Of a stretch of 60,152 nucleotides of DNA, positions 23,348-29,664 are shown piece after piece (within the stretch, counting starts at the first letter, position 1; each line of letters begins with the position of its first letter). Under the pieces are notes generated by a model, which searched no databases, had not been told where the DNA came from, and worked only from the letters and a program-made list of their open reading frames with translations. This DNA is from a virus. The DNA lies in the IMG/VR virus record IMGVR_UViG_3300044631_002033, positions 1 through 60,152 of that record; one strand, given 5' to 3'. Made by a program: the position numbers and the translations under genes.

Positions 23348-24691
23348 TTATGCTGCTTTATTAATTCCGAAAGTATCCCTGACTAATTTCATCGATGTAT
23401 AAGAACGCTCAACATCAAAATGATGACACAATTCCTTTATCATATATAGACCGCTCGTTTCGGTGTCATATTCTGTTGTATCAGATCTAGAAATCTTAGG
23501 AAATCTACATTCAATTAAATCACCTGCTCTCAAATTAGTATTAGATGGAACTGTAATACTAAGAGTTTGTGTAACTAATGTATTGTATCGCATTAAAGAT
23601 TGTGATTGATATTTCTTTTGGTCTGAGTTAATTGAAGTTGAAACACCTTTTTCTAAAGTTCCAACGTCATAAATTGCAGTAATAATTCTAGATGGAACAT
23701 CACCAAGAGTTCTATCAGTTCCATCACCAAGTGGTGGTAATTTTAAATCTTCACCAAGGTTTTGCGACTTATTAATATAGTCATTTTGTCTAAACAATCC
23801 TTCTTCATACTTTGAAAACTTGAAGTCATAAGGATTGAAAAACATTCTGTGACTTGCATATGTTCCAAGTCGCAATTTCTCTACTAGATTTTGATTTTTG
23901 TCTGTAAGATACTTAAGAATCTTAAAGTCATTATTTACTTTCTTACCATCATTATCATAACTTACCATCGTTTGATAATAAGTATAGACTGCTTTCTTTG
24001 GATTCTTTTTTGGGTCTAGTAATGAATCAATTGCTCTAAATTGAAATCCATCACGAGTTTGATAAAATACAAAACCAGCAGTTGCATCACCTGAAGATTC
24101 TGGAACTGCTTTTGATGCCAACCATACTAAAACAGTAAATGGTTTTCTCATATTGCCAATAAAACCATACTTATTTGATGCCTTATCCAATGTTCCTACA
24201 TTATTTGCTTTGAGATAATCTGTAAGAATCTTATTTACAGATTGATCGATAGATAAACTCGTTGGATATTTTTTTGATACTCTGGATGTTTCATTTGTAA
24301 TTGCTTCTCTTGAAACTAGATGTAGAGTAAAAGTTTCTCTAAGTGATTGTGAAATTACATCAGTAATACTTGAAACATAGAGATAATCAGATGGTCTATT
24401 TGAGAAATTTAAACCAGGATTGGTTGTCGAATTACCTGCAATCTTAAGAGATACTCTTTCACCACCTCTTAGTGGTAAACCATTATAGATTGATTGTCTT
24501 TCACCATCTGGATTTTTTGCTGATGGAATCGTATTACCATCATTTACAACTTGAATTCTTGCAGTAATTGTCGGTGAGAAAATGTCCTCATAATAGTCGA
24601 TAGAAATCGCACCAGTTTTGATATCAACTGTTCTTTTACCGTCGTTTGATTGTAATATAAGTTCTTCAAATATAGACCTTTGAATAGACAT
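23348..24691 (-). CDS. 27: Baseplate hub subunit, gp27-like (447 aa)
   Basis: Similar in layout to T4-like gp27, which forms the trimeric adaptor between the baseplate and gp5: MSIQRSIFEELILQS, VDIKTGAISIDYYEDIFSPT, a central domain (FTLHLVSREAITNET), and a C-terminal beta domain (LSITVPSNTNLRAGDLIECRFP). Cyanophage gp27 is usually of this length. Lies immediately before the gp5-like gene (no gap) and overlaps the preceding gene by one base (TAATG). Confidence 0.8.
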   Translation of the reverse strand: MSIQRSIFEELILQSNDGKRTVDIKTGAISIDYYEDIFSPTITARIQVVNDGNTIPSAKNPDGERQSIYNGLPLRGGERVSLKIAGNSTTNPGLNFSNRPSDYLYVSSITDVISQSLRETFTLHLVSREAITNETSRVSKKYPTSLSIDQSVNKILTDYLKANNVGTLDKASNKYGFIGNMRKPFTVLVWLASKAVPESSGDATAGFVFYQTRDGFQFRAIDSLLDPKKNPKKAVYTYYQTMVSYDNDGKKVNNDFKILKYLTDKNQNLVEKLRLGTYASHRMFFNPYDFKFSKYEEGLFRQNDYINKSQNLGEDLKLPPLGDGTDRTLGDVPSRIITAIYDVGTLEKGVSTSINSDQKKYQSQSLMRYNTLVTQTLSITVPSNTNLRAGDLIECRFPKISRSDTTEYDTETSGLYMIKELCHHFDVERSYTSMKLVRDTFGINKAA

Positions 24692-26661
24692 TATAGGTAA
24701 GTTAAATCTAAGAGAAGTTTATTCTTCATAAAGTTATTTACCAAAGTAAATTCACTCACACCAGAAGAAAGTATATCACCACCACCAGCAGAAAATATCA
24801 TTGGTGGAGACGATGGTTTTCTATCATCAATCACTACAACTTTTCTACCTTTCTGTTCAGTTGTTAAGTTTTCTAGAAGTTTACTAAAAGTTGTAATCGA
24901 TGCAGAATCAATTTGAATTTCTTCATTACCAATTCTAACTGTTGTTGAATCGGATCCTACAAGAGGAGTTAATGGTTGTGGTGGTTGGGTTGGTTTGCCA
25001 GAAATTGCAGTAAATTGTGTACCAATCGAAAGAAATTTCAAGTAAGGTTCTGGATTAATTGGACCACCACCATCAATTCTAACTTCAAAATGAAGATGAA
25101 TACCACTAGAACGACCTGTGTTTCCAATTTCACCTATCGTTTCTCCATTATATGGAGCACCATTCTTAACTGATATTTTTGCCAAATGTGCAAAAAAGAA
25201 TTCAAGATTTCCTGAACGAATAATTACCAAGTAACCATAACCACCATCATTCCAACCAGAATAAGTAACTTTCCCAGTTTGTCCAAGTGATACATAATAA
25301 CCTTTTTGACCTGATGTTCCAATATCAATACCTTTGTGCCTTCCACCCCTTGCAAGATATTCCCCTCTTCCACCACTTCTACCAACTCTACGAGTGCCTC
25401 CGGATGGTCCAGCAACATTAATTTCATCAATTACCGATGTTGGGATTTTTCCAGGAGTTGTTGGTTTGGGTTTTGCTACTGGTGGATTTAATCCAAAATC
25501 TGGAACATTAGCAGCACTAGTGCTTTTTCCTACATAAGAACTACCTCTATTAAAACCAAACGTTTGCCCATTTCTTGTAATATCATTAGTCATATCATTA
25601 TATTTTCTTTCATGCCCTTGACTTCTGAAGTCTGGTCTATTACCAATAAACTTTGAAGCACTTTGTTGTATTGATTTATTAGTCAAAGCAGAAGTAACTT
25701 TATCTAAACCACTAACACTTGTGCCATTACCTGGATATTTTTTAATATGAGCAATTGCAGTTTCTCTATCTACAACTTTATTCCAAGCAGAATATCCACC
25801 AAATTTCGTTACTGGTTCATATTGTCCCTTCGCCAAAATTTCTTGTCTTGCAGTTCTCCCACTATATCCCATTCTATTATAAATTGATTGTGCTACATCA
25901 GCAGCACCTTGTGGATTTAAGCTTTCATAATGTGAAATTAATGAAAGTATCCAAAAATCTGGTCCACCACCAGTTGGTTGCCCACCAGGAGGAGTAGGTT
26001 GTTCGGGTTTTTTATCATAAGCACTTGGTTTTTGTGAACGAGATCCTATTGGTGGAATATCGAGAAATGGTTTGGTTAAAATTGAAAGAGCTTCCTCTAA
26101 CTGATTACCCATCGTCATAATGGTTCCAGAAAGATCATCTAATGAAGATTTCAATCTTCCAGAACTATCAGTGAAATCAAATTGCTTAAGATTTGAAAAA
26201 GCAGCATTGAACAAACCACCAATGTCAAAAATAAAATTTTGAATAGTTGATCCAAATTTAGTCATTACTGATCCAGTTTCTCCAATTCTTCTTATAAGTT
26301 GATCACCAATTGCAACCCAGGTTGGTAAATTTCTAAGTGCCCATCCAGCAGCAAGGTAACCAAGAAAACCCATAATACGACTTGTAAAACTAGTATTATC
26401 GCTTCTTTGTGCAAGTAATGCTGGACCTCTATACCTGGTAACAACAGTAGGTGCCGAAATTATCTCTTGTGTATTTTTTCTTTTAGTATCTTGAATTCTT
26501 CTTTGTTTTAAAATTTTAATACTTGATGATATAGTTTTTCTATCTCTGTCTTTTTCAGACAAAATACCAGACATTCCACGTAAAGTTCTTTGAGTTAATC
26601 CAGCAGTATATTTTACAACTCCAAGTGTTTTTGAAATAGGAACTAGTGGATTTATTGCCAT
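24691..26661 (-). CDS. Tail protein with two peptidoglycan-hydrolase domains (656 aa)
   Basis: Residues 235-360 resemble a SleB-type cell-wall hydrolase (WILSLISHYESLNPQGAADV, QSIYNRMGYSG). Residues 430-545 are an M23 endopeptidase (LysM-less, lysostaphin-like) with zinc ligands visible in RHKGIDIG (His442, Asp446) and GIHLHFEVR (His524). The N-terminal 200 residues are basic and helical with a hydrophobic stretch (MGFLGYLAAGWAL). Pro-rich linkers join the parts. Placed between gp27 and a tape-measure-like gene, it probably replaces the gp5 lysozyme as the enzyme that locally opens the cell wall at injection. Confidence 0.8.
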   Translation of the reverse strand: MAINPLVPISKTLGVVKYTAGLTQRTLRGMSGILSEKDRDRKTISSSIKILKQRRIQDTKRKNTQEIISAPTVVTRYRGPALLAQRSDNTSFTSRIMGFLGYLAAGWALRNLPTWVAIGDQLIRRIGETGSVMTKFGSTIQNFIFDIGGLFNAAFSNLKQFDFTDSSGRLKSSLDDLSGTIMTMGNQLEEALSILTKPFLDIPPIGSRSQKPSAYDKKPEQPTPPGGQPTGGGPDFWILSLISHYESLNPQGAADVAQSIYNRMGYSGRTARQEILAKGQYEPVTKFGGYSAWNKVVDRETAIAHIKKYPGNGTSVSGLDKVTSALTNKSIQQSASKFIGNRPDFRSQGHERKYNDMTNDITRNGQTFGFNRGSSYVGKSTSAANVPDFGLNPPVAKPKPTTPGKIPTSVIDEINVAGPSGGTRRVGRSGGRGEYLARGGRHKGIDIGTSGQKGYYVSLGQTGKVTYSGWNDGGYGYLVIIRSGNLEFFFAHLAKISVKNGAPYNGETIGEIGNTGRSSGIHLHFEVRIDGGGPINPEPYLKFLSIGTQFTAISGKPTQPPQPLTPLVGSDSTTVRIGNEEIQIDSASITTFSKLLENLTTEQKGRKVVVIDDRKPSSPPMIFSAGGGDILSSGVSEFTLVNNFMKNKLLLDLTYL

Positions 26662-26662
26662 C

Positions 26663-27949
26663 TTACATTACCACATTATAATTGAGTTGTGAATATAGAA
26701 CATAAAAATTATCAGGATTTGCAGAAGATATGAAAGGAATGTCTTCAGGTGAAGTCATTACAGGCGCCTGTTGTTCTTGTTGTCCAGAAACTGTAGACAT
26801 CATTACAATATCTGGTTTTGGTTCTGGTAAAGTTAAATCTTTTGCAGGTGTTGGTGGATTATATGGTTGAACTTGAAGTGGAATAGGTTTTGGTTGTGCG
26901 GAAACCTCAGGTTTTGAAACATTACTTATTGGTGTAGTAACTGGTTTGGTGGATTCGGTAGACCCAGACATCAAAGCACCCATATTATTGATAAAATTCT
27001 GGGAACCCTTTGATAACTGTTCAAATGTTTGCCCTATATTAAAATCAATTTTAGGCATTGCAAAAGTCATTCCACTTTTTTGAGTAGCATCAAAAGCAGA
27101 TTTAGCGCCAGCAGATCCAAGAAAATAACCACCAATACCACCAAAAAGAGACCCAGCAGGTCCAAAAACACTACCAGCAGCGGCACCAGTTAAAGCGCCA
27201 GTGGCAGCGCCTCCGACACCGCCAGCAACTGCTCTCTCAGGACTTTCTCCAGTAGCAATATCTATGCCAACTGCCGCTGCTGGTCCAGAAATACCTCTTA
27301 AAAGTTTTCCAAATGTAGATAGTGCCGCACCACTAACTGCTACTGCTGCCCCAGCAGCTTTAGCAGCACCCCCACCTCCTAAACTAAAAACCGACTTAAA
27401 AGCATCTGCAATTGCTTTAAAAGGTGAAGAAGCAAGTTTGAATATAATGTCCGAGACTTTCTTTGTGAGACCGGTAACAGATCTAAAAACAAATCCAAAA
27501 CCAGAACCAAGAGATGATAATGCTCCAATTACTAAACGAAGTGAATTGGCAATTAGAGATTTAGTTCCATTAATAGTTTTACCTAGTACAGAAACACTGG
27601 AACGTAACCCTACAATACCAAGTGTTGAAATTGTACCAAATAATCCCTTTAATGCTTCACTAATTCCACCAAAAGTATTTGATATTTTATTTTCAACTTT
27701 TCTAATTGGAGATGCAATTGATTCCGCAACTCTTCTTTCAATTTCAGTTTCCTTACCAACTTTAATTTGTTGTTGGGTTAATGTTCTTTCTTTCTGTTCT
27801 TCTTCCCGTAATCTAATTCTTTCAGCAACTCTATCATTTTGAAGCAATCTGCCAATATTTGTTAGACCGGCATTCAGTCCAAAAATGTCCGAACGAATAC
27901 CATCAATTTGACCTTGAATAGAAACTAAAGGTGAATTGTAGTTATCCAT
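26663..27949 (-). CDS. Tape-measure-like tail protein (428 aa)
   Basis: Helical, low-complexity composition typical of tape-measure or hub proteins: charged coiled coil (RVAERIRLREEEQKERTLTQ, residues 38-75), alternating hydrophobic helices (GTISTLGIVGLRSSVSVLGK), an Ala/Gly-rich membrane-active-looking region (residues 195-290, GGGGAAKAAGAAVAVSGAA, GGAATGALTGAAAGSVFGP), then a Pro-rich tail. It may correspond to part of T4 gp29. Starts eight bases inside the end of gp51. Confidence 0.65.
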   Translation of the reverse strand: MDNYNSPLVSIQGQIDGIRSDIFGLNAGLTNIGRLLQNDRVAERIRLREEEQKERTLTQQQIKVGKETEIERRVAESIASPIRKVENKISNTFGGISEALKGLFGTISTLGIVGLRSSVSVLGKTINGTKSLIANSLRLVIGALSSLGSGFGFVFRSVTGLTKKVSDIIFKLASSPFKAIADAFKSVFSLGGGGAAKAAGAAVAVSGAALSTFGKLLRGISGPAAAVGIDIATGESPERAVAGGVGGAATGALTGAAAGSVFGPAGSLFGGIGGYFLGSAGAKSAFDATQKSGMTFAMPKIDFNIGQTFEQLSKGSQNFINNMGALMSGSTESTKPVTTPISNVSKPEVSAQPKPIPLQVQPYNPPTPAKDLTLPEPKPDIVMMSTVSGQQEQQAPVMTSPEDIPFISSANPDNFYVLYSQLNYNVVM

Positions 27950-28115
27950 TGGTGCTTTGCTTCATATTTTCTTCTTCAATGTACTGTTGTAGTAAGGAAA
28001 CGTAAACTTCTCTCTCCCACGGAATCATATTTTCTAGTTCCGTCAAAGAGTATTTATGATGCTGAATGAGAGCAAAGTTGGTCTTATAGTATGACGCAAG
28101 ATCTTCATGCGCCAT
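27942..28115 (-). CDS. 51: Baseplate hub assembly protein, gp51-like (57 aa)
   Basis: MAHEDLASYYKTNFALIQHH, then SLTELENMIPWEREVYVSLL: a short helical protein with the W-E-R-E pattern of small tail-assembly chaperones, found after gp26 in cyanophages. It overlaps the next gene by eight bases and starts three bases after the gp26 stop. It lies in the -1 frame relative to gp26, and the last gp26 codons contain the slippery heptamer T TTT TTC, so a gp26-gp51 fusion may be made. Confidence 0.7.
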   Translation of the reverse strand: MAHEDLASYYKTNFALIQHHKYSLTELENMIPWEREVYVSLLQQYIEEENMKQSTNG

Positions 28116-28117
28116 CG

Positions 28118-28837
28118 CTAGGCGAAAAAAGATGTTAAACCCTCCAGAACAACTTCATTTTCAACACCAGTATTTGGATTTGTAACTTTAAACTTATGAG
28201 AAAGTTTGGGCATAGTCTCAAAGAACTTTTCAATCTCTTTGAATTGTGAAGAAGTTAGTTGCTCAATAAATGCAGTAAGTTCTTTCTTCGTCACATCAGA
28301 AGAAGACCAGGACTCATCTTCACTGTAAATCTGCTCAACACAAGAACAAATCATATCAAAAGTATCATCAACACTTACAGATGATTCCAGAGCAAAGTTG
28401 GTTTTAATAAACTCTTGCATTGATGGATATCTCATACGAAGAGTTAATTTTGCGTCAAGTTTAATATCGCGAGCATGTTCTTCTTTAACAATAACTTTAA
28501 TGTCGTCCAAATTGATACTTACAGGAACTTGAGTTACTCCATCATCTGGGCAAGTAATTAGAACTTCAACATCCTCACCAACAGACTTACCACGAATGTT
28601 TAGAAAAAGATACTCAATATCAAAAGTAGATAATTGATCTACTTTGATACCCTTAGACATAATACAATTTGAAATGACTGTTTTTACCGCCTCTGCAATT
28701 TGCTTTGGATCTTCACTTTCCATTGCAATTACTAGAATCTTTTCTTCTTTTACAAGAAATGGGCGATACTTAATTGTCTTTTTTATAGAAGGAATTTCCA
28801 ACTCATACGTTGGTGTAGCGATTGTTGGTAAAGGCAT
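28118..28837 (-). CDS. 26: Baseplate hub assembly/chaperone protein gp26
   Basis: T4_baseplate family (PF12322-like): MPLPTIATPTYELEIPS, KKTIKYRPFLVKEEKIL, TLRMRYPSMQEFIK and the C-terminal FKVTNPNTGVENEVVLEGL. T4 gp26 is needed for hub assembly. 239 aa, a normal length. Preceded by a late promoter (28864-28871) and followed by gp51 with a possible -1 frameshift. Confidence 0.85.
   Translation of the reverse strand: MPLPTIATPTYELEIPSIKKTIKYRPFLVKEEKILVIAMESEDPKQIAEAVKTVISNCIMSKGIKVDQLSTFDIEYLFLNIRGKSVGEDVEVLITCPDDGVTQVPVSINLDDIKVIVKEEHARDIKLDAKLTLRMRYPSMQEFIKTNFALESSVSVDDTFDMICSCVEQIYSEDESWSSSDVTKKELTAFIEQLTSSQFKEIEKFFETMPKLSHKFKVTNPNTGVENEVVLEGLTSFFA
28124..28130 (-). promoter_or_regulatory. 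Candidate -1 ribosomal frameshift site T TTT TTC
   Basis: On the minus strand gp26 ends tct-ttt-ttc-gcc-tag. The heptamer T-TTT-TTC fits X-XXY-YYZ in phase with gp26. A -1 shift continues cgc-cta-gcg-ATG in the gp51 frame. A possible short hairpin (CGCA...TGCG) lies about 12 bases downstream. Confidence 0.55.
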
Positions 28838-28863: not shown

Positions 28864-28871
28864 TATTTATT
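28864..28871 (-). promoter_or_regulatory. Late promoter candidate AATAAATA before gp26
   Basis: NATAAATA match 27 bases before gp26; overlaps the stop codon of gp54. Confidence 0.55.
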
Positions 28872-29664
28872 TCCTTCCGTAAAGGTATTCGTAGAGAGTT
28901 TGATTTGATGGTGTGAGTTCTACTCCACCAGAAGGAAGTGAACCAGGAGATCTTGGAATAAGAATCGGTTTTTCTGGTTGTGGTGGTGGAGGAGATGATT
29001 GTGTGACATCATTATTGTTATTATCGCCTCTAAATTCATTTACACTATTTGACCTACCAGCAATATAGCGATCAAATTTAAAAGTTACACTAACTTTAAG
29101 AATTTCTGAGCTTACATATGATACTGAGATTGGACTTATATCAGATGGAAATAACCCAATAAATTTATATTCAATTTGCTGATCATAATCCCTATCAAAT
29201 TTAATAATTCTTGTTGAATCTGTTTTATAATTTTCAGGGTACTGCATTCTAACAAAATATCCTTGATTATTTTGATTTACTCTTTGATTATCACCTATTT
29301 CATTATTAAAAGAACCACTTGCGATAAACTCCATCCACCCTTCAAAGAATTTTACAATCTTGTAGTCACTGTCAACATAAAAATCTAATGCTATCGTGCT
29401 GTATACTCGATTAAAAGCAATGTTTTCATAAACCCCAGTATAGTTACCATCAATTAATACCGTACTCAAACTTGTTGTTGGTAATGCGGCAGAATAACAT
29501 AAAAGACCACTATTCTCAGTGACAAATAGGGGAGATATTCCTTTACGGACCAGATATGTTCTTAAAGGTGTAGGCAACCCACCAAAAATAATCTGATAAT
29601 GCGAAGTCTGTGCTAGATTTGAAACTATTGGTTTAAAATCAGATATCCTGCGGGGTTGTACCAC
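28867..29664 (-). CDS. 54: Baseplate tail-tube initiator, gp54-like (265 aa)
   Basis: Tail-tube-like fold signature: HYQIIFGGLPTPLRTYLVRKG cut to HYQIIFGGLPTPL, GLLCYSAALPTTSLSTVLID, then VYSTIALDFYVDSDYKIVKFF and ILKVSVTFKFDRYIAG. gp54 and gp48 cap the baseplate and start the tube; gp48 is on the opposite strand nearby. The C-terminus is Pro-rich. Divergent from gp4 with a 40-base gap that holds a near-late promoter TATAAATC on this strand. Confidence 0.75.
   Translation of the reverse strand: MVQPRRISDFKPIVSNLAQTSHYQIIFGGLPTPLRTYLVRKGISPLFVTENSGLLCYSAALPTTSLSTVLIDGNYTGVYENIAFNRVYSTIALDFYVDSDYKIVKFFEGWMEFIASGSFNNEIGDNQRVNQNNQGYFVRMQYPENYKTDSTRIIKFDRDYDQQIEYKFIGLFPSDISPISVSYVSSEILKVSVTFKFDRYIAGRSNSVNEFRGDNNNNDVTQSSPPPPQPEKPILIPRSPGSLPSGGVELTPSNQTLYEYLYGRK

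Follow-up and report, generated by a model that had tools for sequence, protein, structure and literature searches.

We analysed a 60,152-base stretch of viral DNA (IMG/VR virus record IMGVR_UViG_3300044631_002033, positions 1 to 60,152; hereafter the window), in which gene gp26 is followed by gp51 on the minus strand. We conclude, with a probability of about 0.94, that the heptamer T TTT TTC at the end of gp26 works as a programmed −1 ribosomal frameshift signal. The frameshift most likely yields a short (gp26) and a long (gp26-51) tail assembly chaperone. An earlier note on this DNA had suggested such a frameshift, and the suggestion is supported by conservation of the heptamer, a covarying hairpin, an upstream Shine-Dalgarno (SD)-like element and homologous gp51 sequences that lack a start codon. 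In the most abundant marine myoviruses gp26 and gp51 belong to the core tail genes, and annotations call them a hub subunit and a hub assembly catalyst; the evidence points instead to a single gene whose two products are forms of a tail assembly chaperone.

The slippery heptamer and its conservation

The elements of the junction are as follows.

28118..28837, minus strand: gp26 in the zero frame, 239 amino acids, stop TAG; putative short chaperone form (TAC-N); PF12322, PHROG 150
28124..28130, minus strand: slippery heptamer T TTT TTC, in phase, one codon ahead of the stop
27942..28124, minus strand: −1 frame extension after a slip, RLA plus gp51, 60 amino acids and then a stop
27942..28115, minus strand: gp51 as a separate open reading frame (ORF), 57 amino acids; putative long-form C-terminal domain (TAC-C)

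The 3′ end of gp26 reads CTG GAG GGT TTA ACA TCT TTT TTC GCC TAG on the minus strand, followed by CG ATG GCG CAT at the beginning of gp51. The heptamer (28130..28124) has the correct X-XXY-YYZ phase, as the earlier note had stated, and the gp51 ATG lies two bases past the gp26 TAG, in the −1 frame relative to gp26. A −1 slip at the heptamer reads CGC CTA GCG and then the whole of gp51, for a product of 238 + 3 + 57 = 298 amino acids. The reading frames and the predicted fusion length of about 300 residues given in the note were confirmed; the point of entry was corrected from two codons before the ATG to three. Among the ORFs of at least 150 amino acids in the window, only one of 29 phenylalanine pairs is written as T TTT TTY, and it is the pair at the gp26 junction.

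Conservation in relatives was the check that the note had set. In 264 loci drawn from IMG/VR scans and named phages, which form 123 groups at 85% amino acid identity, 262 loci and 121 groups have kept T TTT TTN in phase, followed by gp51 in the −1 frame. By group, the heptamer was TTTTTTC in 111, TTTTTTT in nine and TTTTTTG in one; its distance to the stop in these 121 groups was 0–24 nucleotides, mostly 3, and it was conserved down to 24–31% gp26 identity. All 80 IMG/VR loci found by the gp26 protein alone kept an in-phase T TTT TTC with gp51 sequence in the −1 frame. A gp51 profile matched the −1 frame in 259 of the 264 loci, this profile having been built partly from the −1 frames of the same loci, and independent support came from tblastn and PHROG 634. 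The −1 frame was open across the junction, with an extension of 57–73 amino acids in 119 groups.

The hosts of phages with the heptamer range from Prochlorococcus to Pelagibacter, Aeromonas, Vibrio, Rhizobium, Pseudomonas and Cronobacter; the recoding signal occurs in phages that infect cyanobacteria, alphaproteobacteria and gammaproteobacteria. Named phages with T TTT TTN include S-PM2, P-SSM2, P-SSM4, S-CAM1, HTVC008M, phiN3, phiAS5, pf16, OC, MA01, Melnitz, RHph_I1_9, Vibrio phage D525, Bhz51, LPCS28, Bakedbeans, IC12 and K567. A scan of viral contigs with the gp26 of Vibrio phage D525 as query returned no relatives. Stenotrophomonas phage IME-SM1 (locus L087, 2140-2330) is an exception: its slippery run is one T shorter than in its relative Bhz51, where the heptamer is intact, and its gp26 reads on for about 28 residues. 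The missing T may be a real loss or a homopolymer sequencing error, which are indistinguishable, and we did not accept IME-SM1 as a case of gene extension without frameshifting.

RNA signals flanking the heptamer

Two further elements stand on either side of the heptamer.

28087..28120, minus strand: hairpin shortly 3′ of the heptamer; in its core stem 28115..28108 pair with 28098..28091, and further out 28120..28118 pair with 28089..28087
28140..28145, minus strand: SD-like GGAGGG, about 10 nucleotides upstream of the heptamer

The hairpin starts 5–8 nucleotides past the heptamer, covaries in the clade of the window and holds the gp51 ATG in its 5′ arm. In the window it has a folding energy of −12.6 kcal/mol (z −2.3). 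Mean folding energy in 40-nucleotide segments reached its minimum 5 nucleotides after the heptamer, at −9.95 kcal/mol vs a background of −4.1 kcal/mol (standard deviation 0.86), which is 6.8 standard deviations below the positional background (mean shuffle z −2.7). Among 69 close sequences, 91.7% of helix cells pair, compared with 25–47% when the helix is slid by 1–3 columns, and 30 cells show double changes, compared with 11.4 in shuffles. All but one of these 30 double changes fall at a single pair (U-A, G-C or A-U) that joins the third position of an alanine codon to the second position of a codon further on. Related sequences inflate the covariation counts, and the slid control therefore weighs more, as does the replacement helix of the S-PM2 clade, a different helix of 14 base pairs in the same place (z −7.1).

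By script count, GGAGG stands 10 nucleotides ahead of the heptamer in 44 of the 121 groups and GAGG in 32 more; the density of GGAGG in the body of gp26 is 0.0002 per nucleotide. The glutamate codon of the element is GAG in 76 of 97 cases, vs 32% overall. Because the Leu-Glu-Gly residues are also conserved in the protein, the conservation of GGAGG is partly a protein constraint. By their presence, the hairpin and the SD-like element are of the type that stimulates frameshifting, and they may do so here. A second in-phase site upstream in the window, G GGT TTA, was rejected as a signal, being found in a minority of groups only.

Frameshifting weighed against other routes to gp51

Several observations weigh against frameshifting into a chaperone. 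The hairpin is weak or different in the more distant groups; of 120 groups, 76% have z below −1. An ATG near the gp51 start is kept in 74 of 121 groups. In Vibrio phage K351 (locus L088, about 2180-2400), gp51 lies in the −1 register without the heptamer and a TAATG overlap is found instead; this possibly reflects an independent gp51 start in at least one lineage, where frameshifting seems to have been replaced by a start-stop overlap. The AlphaFold2 model of gp26 (mean predicted local distance difference test score, pLDDT, 85.9) did not match any solved chaperone significantly: of the PDB entries listed, the two with the highest probability were YqbN (3klu, 0.38) and, from HK97, the tail assembly chaperone (2ob9, 0.35), with E above 1. 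In the literature on cyanophages we found no protein, ribosome-profiling or reporter evidence for the fusion.

The K351 arrangement would suit a gp51 made as a separate protein, through termination-reinitiation or coupling at TAG CG ATG, with the heptamer as a by-product of two conserved phenylalanines; so would the ATG two nucleotides past the stop, which the window shares with most of its close relatives. Codon usage argues otherwise. The phenylalanine pair is written as T TTT TTY at 120 of 121 junctions, compared with 5 of 124 pairs elsewhere in the gp26 genes of these groups, and on these counts we rejected chance or codon bias as the source of the heptamer. The residue ahead of the pair is variable (Ser, Asn, Ala, Asp, Thr or His), and its codon, which holds the first T of the heptamer, always ends in T (TCT, AGT, GCT, AAT, GAT, ACT or CAT).

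The start of gp51 also argues against separate synthesis. No ATG is present near it in 47 of 121 groups, and 35 groups, including S-CAM1 and LPCS28, have no ATG, GTG or TTG in the −1 frame anywhere from the upstream stop to the conserved gp51 core, so the full gp51 cannot be made alone there. The ATG of TAG CG ATG is buried in a conserved hairpin. None of 70 gp51 ATGs in the usual place has an SD-like motif 4–18 nucleotides upstream, whereas such a motif precedes 52 of the 117 starts of gp26 and 9 of the 40 long ORFs in the window. We consider separate translation of gp51 highly improbable. In the records of S-CAM1, Melnitz, HTVC008M, OC, phiAS5 and LPCS28, gp51 is unannotated or started inside the conserved core, and S-SSM4, Syn10 and ACG-2014d are also among the many records in which it was missed or mis-started.

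Slippage of RNA polymerase on the T6 run, adding a U to part of the transcripts and so joining the frames, would fit the near invariance of the run, but it has just as little chance of being correct, given an SD-like element upstream and a hairpin 5–8 nucleotides downstream that are spaced as ribosomal stimulators, and given that six T are short for transcriptional slippage.

Under programmed ribosomal frameshifting, most ribosomes would terminate gp26 at the TAG (28120). A minority, stalled on T TTT TTC by the hairpin that follows, and with probable help from base pairing between 16S rRNA and the upstream GGAGG, would slip back by one base while tRNA-Phe occupied the P and A sites. These ribosomes would then read CGC CTA GCG and gp51, making a gp26-gp51 protein of about 298 amino acids. 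If lambda gpG/gpGT is a guide, the short form would coat the tape measure protein, and tail tube subunits would be recruited by the long form through its C-terminal domain.

We also entertain, as an unlikely extension, a dual role in which the hairpin drives the slip and hides the gp51 start, while slipped ribosomes deliver translation to the overlapping tape-measure gene as well. If true, one frameshift rate would set the doses of the long chaperone and the tape measure together. Of the about 108 groups that have a next gene, 53 show an 8-nucleotide overlap of the tape-measure ATG with the gp51 stop, and an SD motif is usually absent there. The downstream gene has an SD motif in 18 of 108 groups, about the window baseline (9 of 40), and this scarcity therefore gives no support by itself for translational coupling. 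In the window, the tape-measure-like ATG lies inside the end of gp51, with an 8-nucleotide overlap, ATGGATAA (27942-27949).

Gene context and known systems

The junction is flanked by two tail genes.

28867..29664, minus strand: tail tube protein gene, upstream of gp26; PF23849, PHROG 45
26663..27949, minus strand: tape-measure-like gene, 428 amino acids, next after gp51; PHROG 167 (E about 2e-7), PHROG 2854 (3e-6)

The gene order on the minus strand is thus tail tube, gp26, gp51 and tape-measure-like protein. Tail assembly chaperones are usually encoded at this position, between tube and tape measure, and the comparison with such chaperones made in the earlier note is apt. In HTVC008M the pair likewise lies between the tail tube and tape measure genes, with a small gene intervening. 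Directly 3′ of the tape-measure-like gene in the window is a 656-amino-acid protein with an M23 peptidase domain (24691-26661, minus strand); the tape measure may be split, with this protein as its second part.

The gp26 protein matched the Pfam family T4_baseplate (PF12322, E 2e-75) and PHROG 150. Among viral models, its AlphaFold2 model matched numerous baseplate hub proteins of phages; searching PDB sequences with the gp26 profile yielded no relevant hit. Matches of gp51 were to PHROG 634 and to positions 239–278 of PHROG 150, past the gp26 part; PHROG 150 covers both parts, and some of its members therefore hold both in one protein. In T4, gp26 and gp51 are on opposite strands, and T4 gp51 consists of a PF12322 T4_baseplate domain (1-201, E 4e-52) followed by the cyanophage gp51 domain (208-245). 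T4 gp51 is a pre-made gp26-51 fusion, and T4 has two genes for what the other phages appear to make from one.

Vladimirov, Gautam and Davidson (in Virology 566:9-15, 2022) are said to have identified genes 26 and 51 as the T4 chaperone genes, with frameshifting kept in several T4-like groups. The domain make-up of T4 gp51, a gp26-like domain plus the gp51 domain, agrees with this assignment. Passages in two papers cite Vladimirov et al. 2022 for identifying the T4-like chaperone genes (PMC10885494, PMC12846349); one credits them with poly-T slippery sites in the TAC-N genes of T4-like phages (PMC12846349), the other with a short gene and a separate long fusion gene in some T4-like phages (PMC10885494). 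Cyanophage gp51 has been described as reaching about 20% of the usual length, with the likeness in the C-terminal part, in an account that did not propose frameshifting (PMC3037559). In our reading, it is about one fifth of the length of T4 gp51 because gp26 and gp51 are one gene with two products. The central frameshift idea is already proposed for T4 relatives; the hairpin, the SD-like element and the start-less gp51 genes may be new detail.

The tail chaperones of Vandenendeviridae and Andersonviridae belong to other families and use another site (GTTTTT), but like gp26/gp51 they have a conserved poly-T site and an open −1 frame, with the downstream frame annotated as a separate gene, and both proposals are sequence-based (PMC12846349). 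With lambda gpG/gpGT, gp26/gp51 shared no sequence similarity that we could find, and the heptamers differ. The lambda heptamer is G GGA AAG. In E. coli dnaX, an upstream SD-like element and a downstream hairpin accompany an A AAA AAG heptamer. Although dnaX is a cellular gene, and one in which the roles of the stimulators have been measured where for gp26-51 they are proposed, it has the same three-part layout of SD-like element, heptamer and hairpin as the gp26-51 junction.
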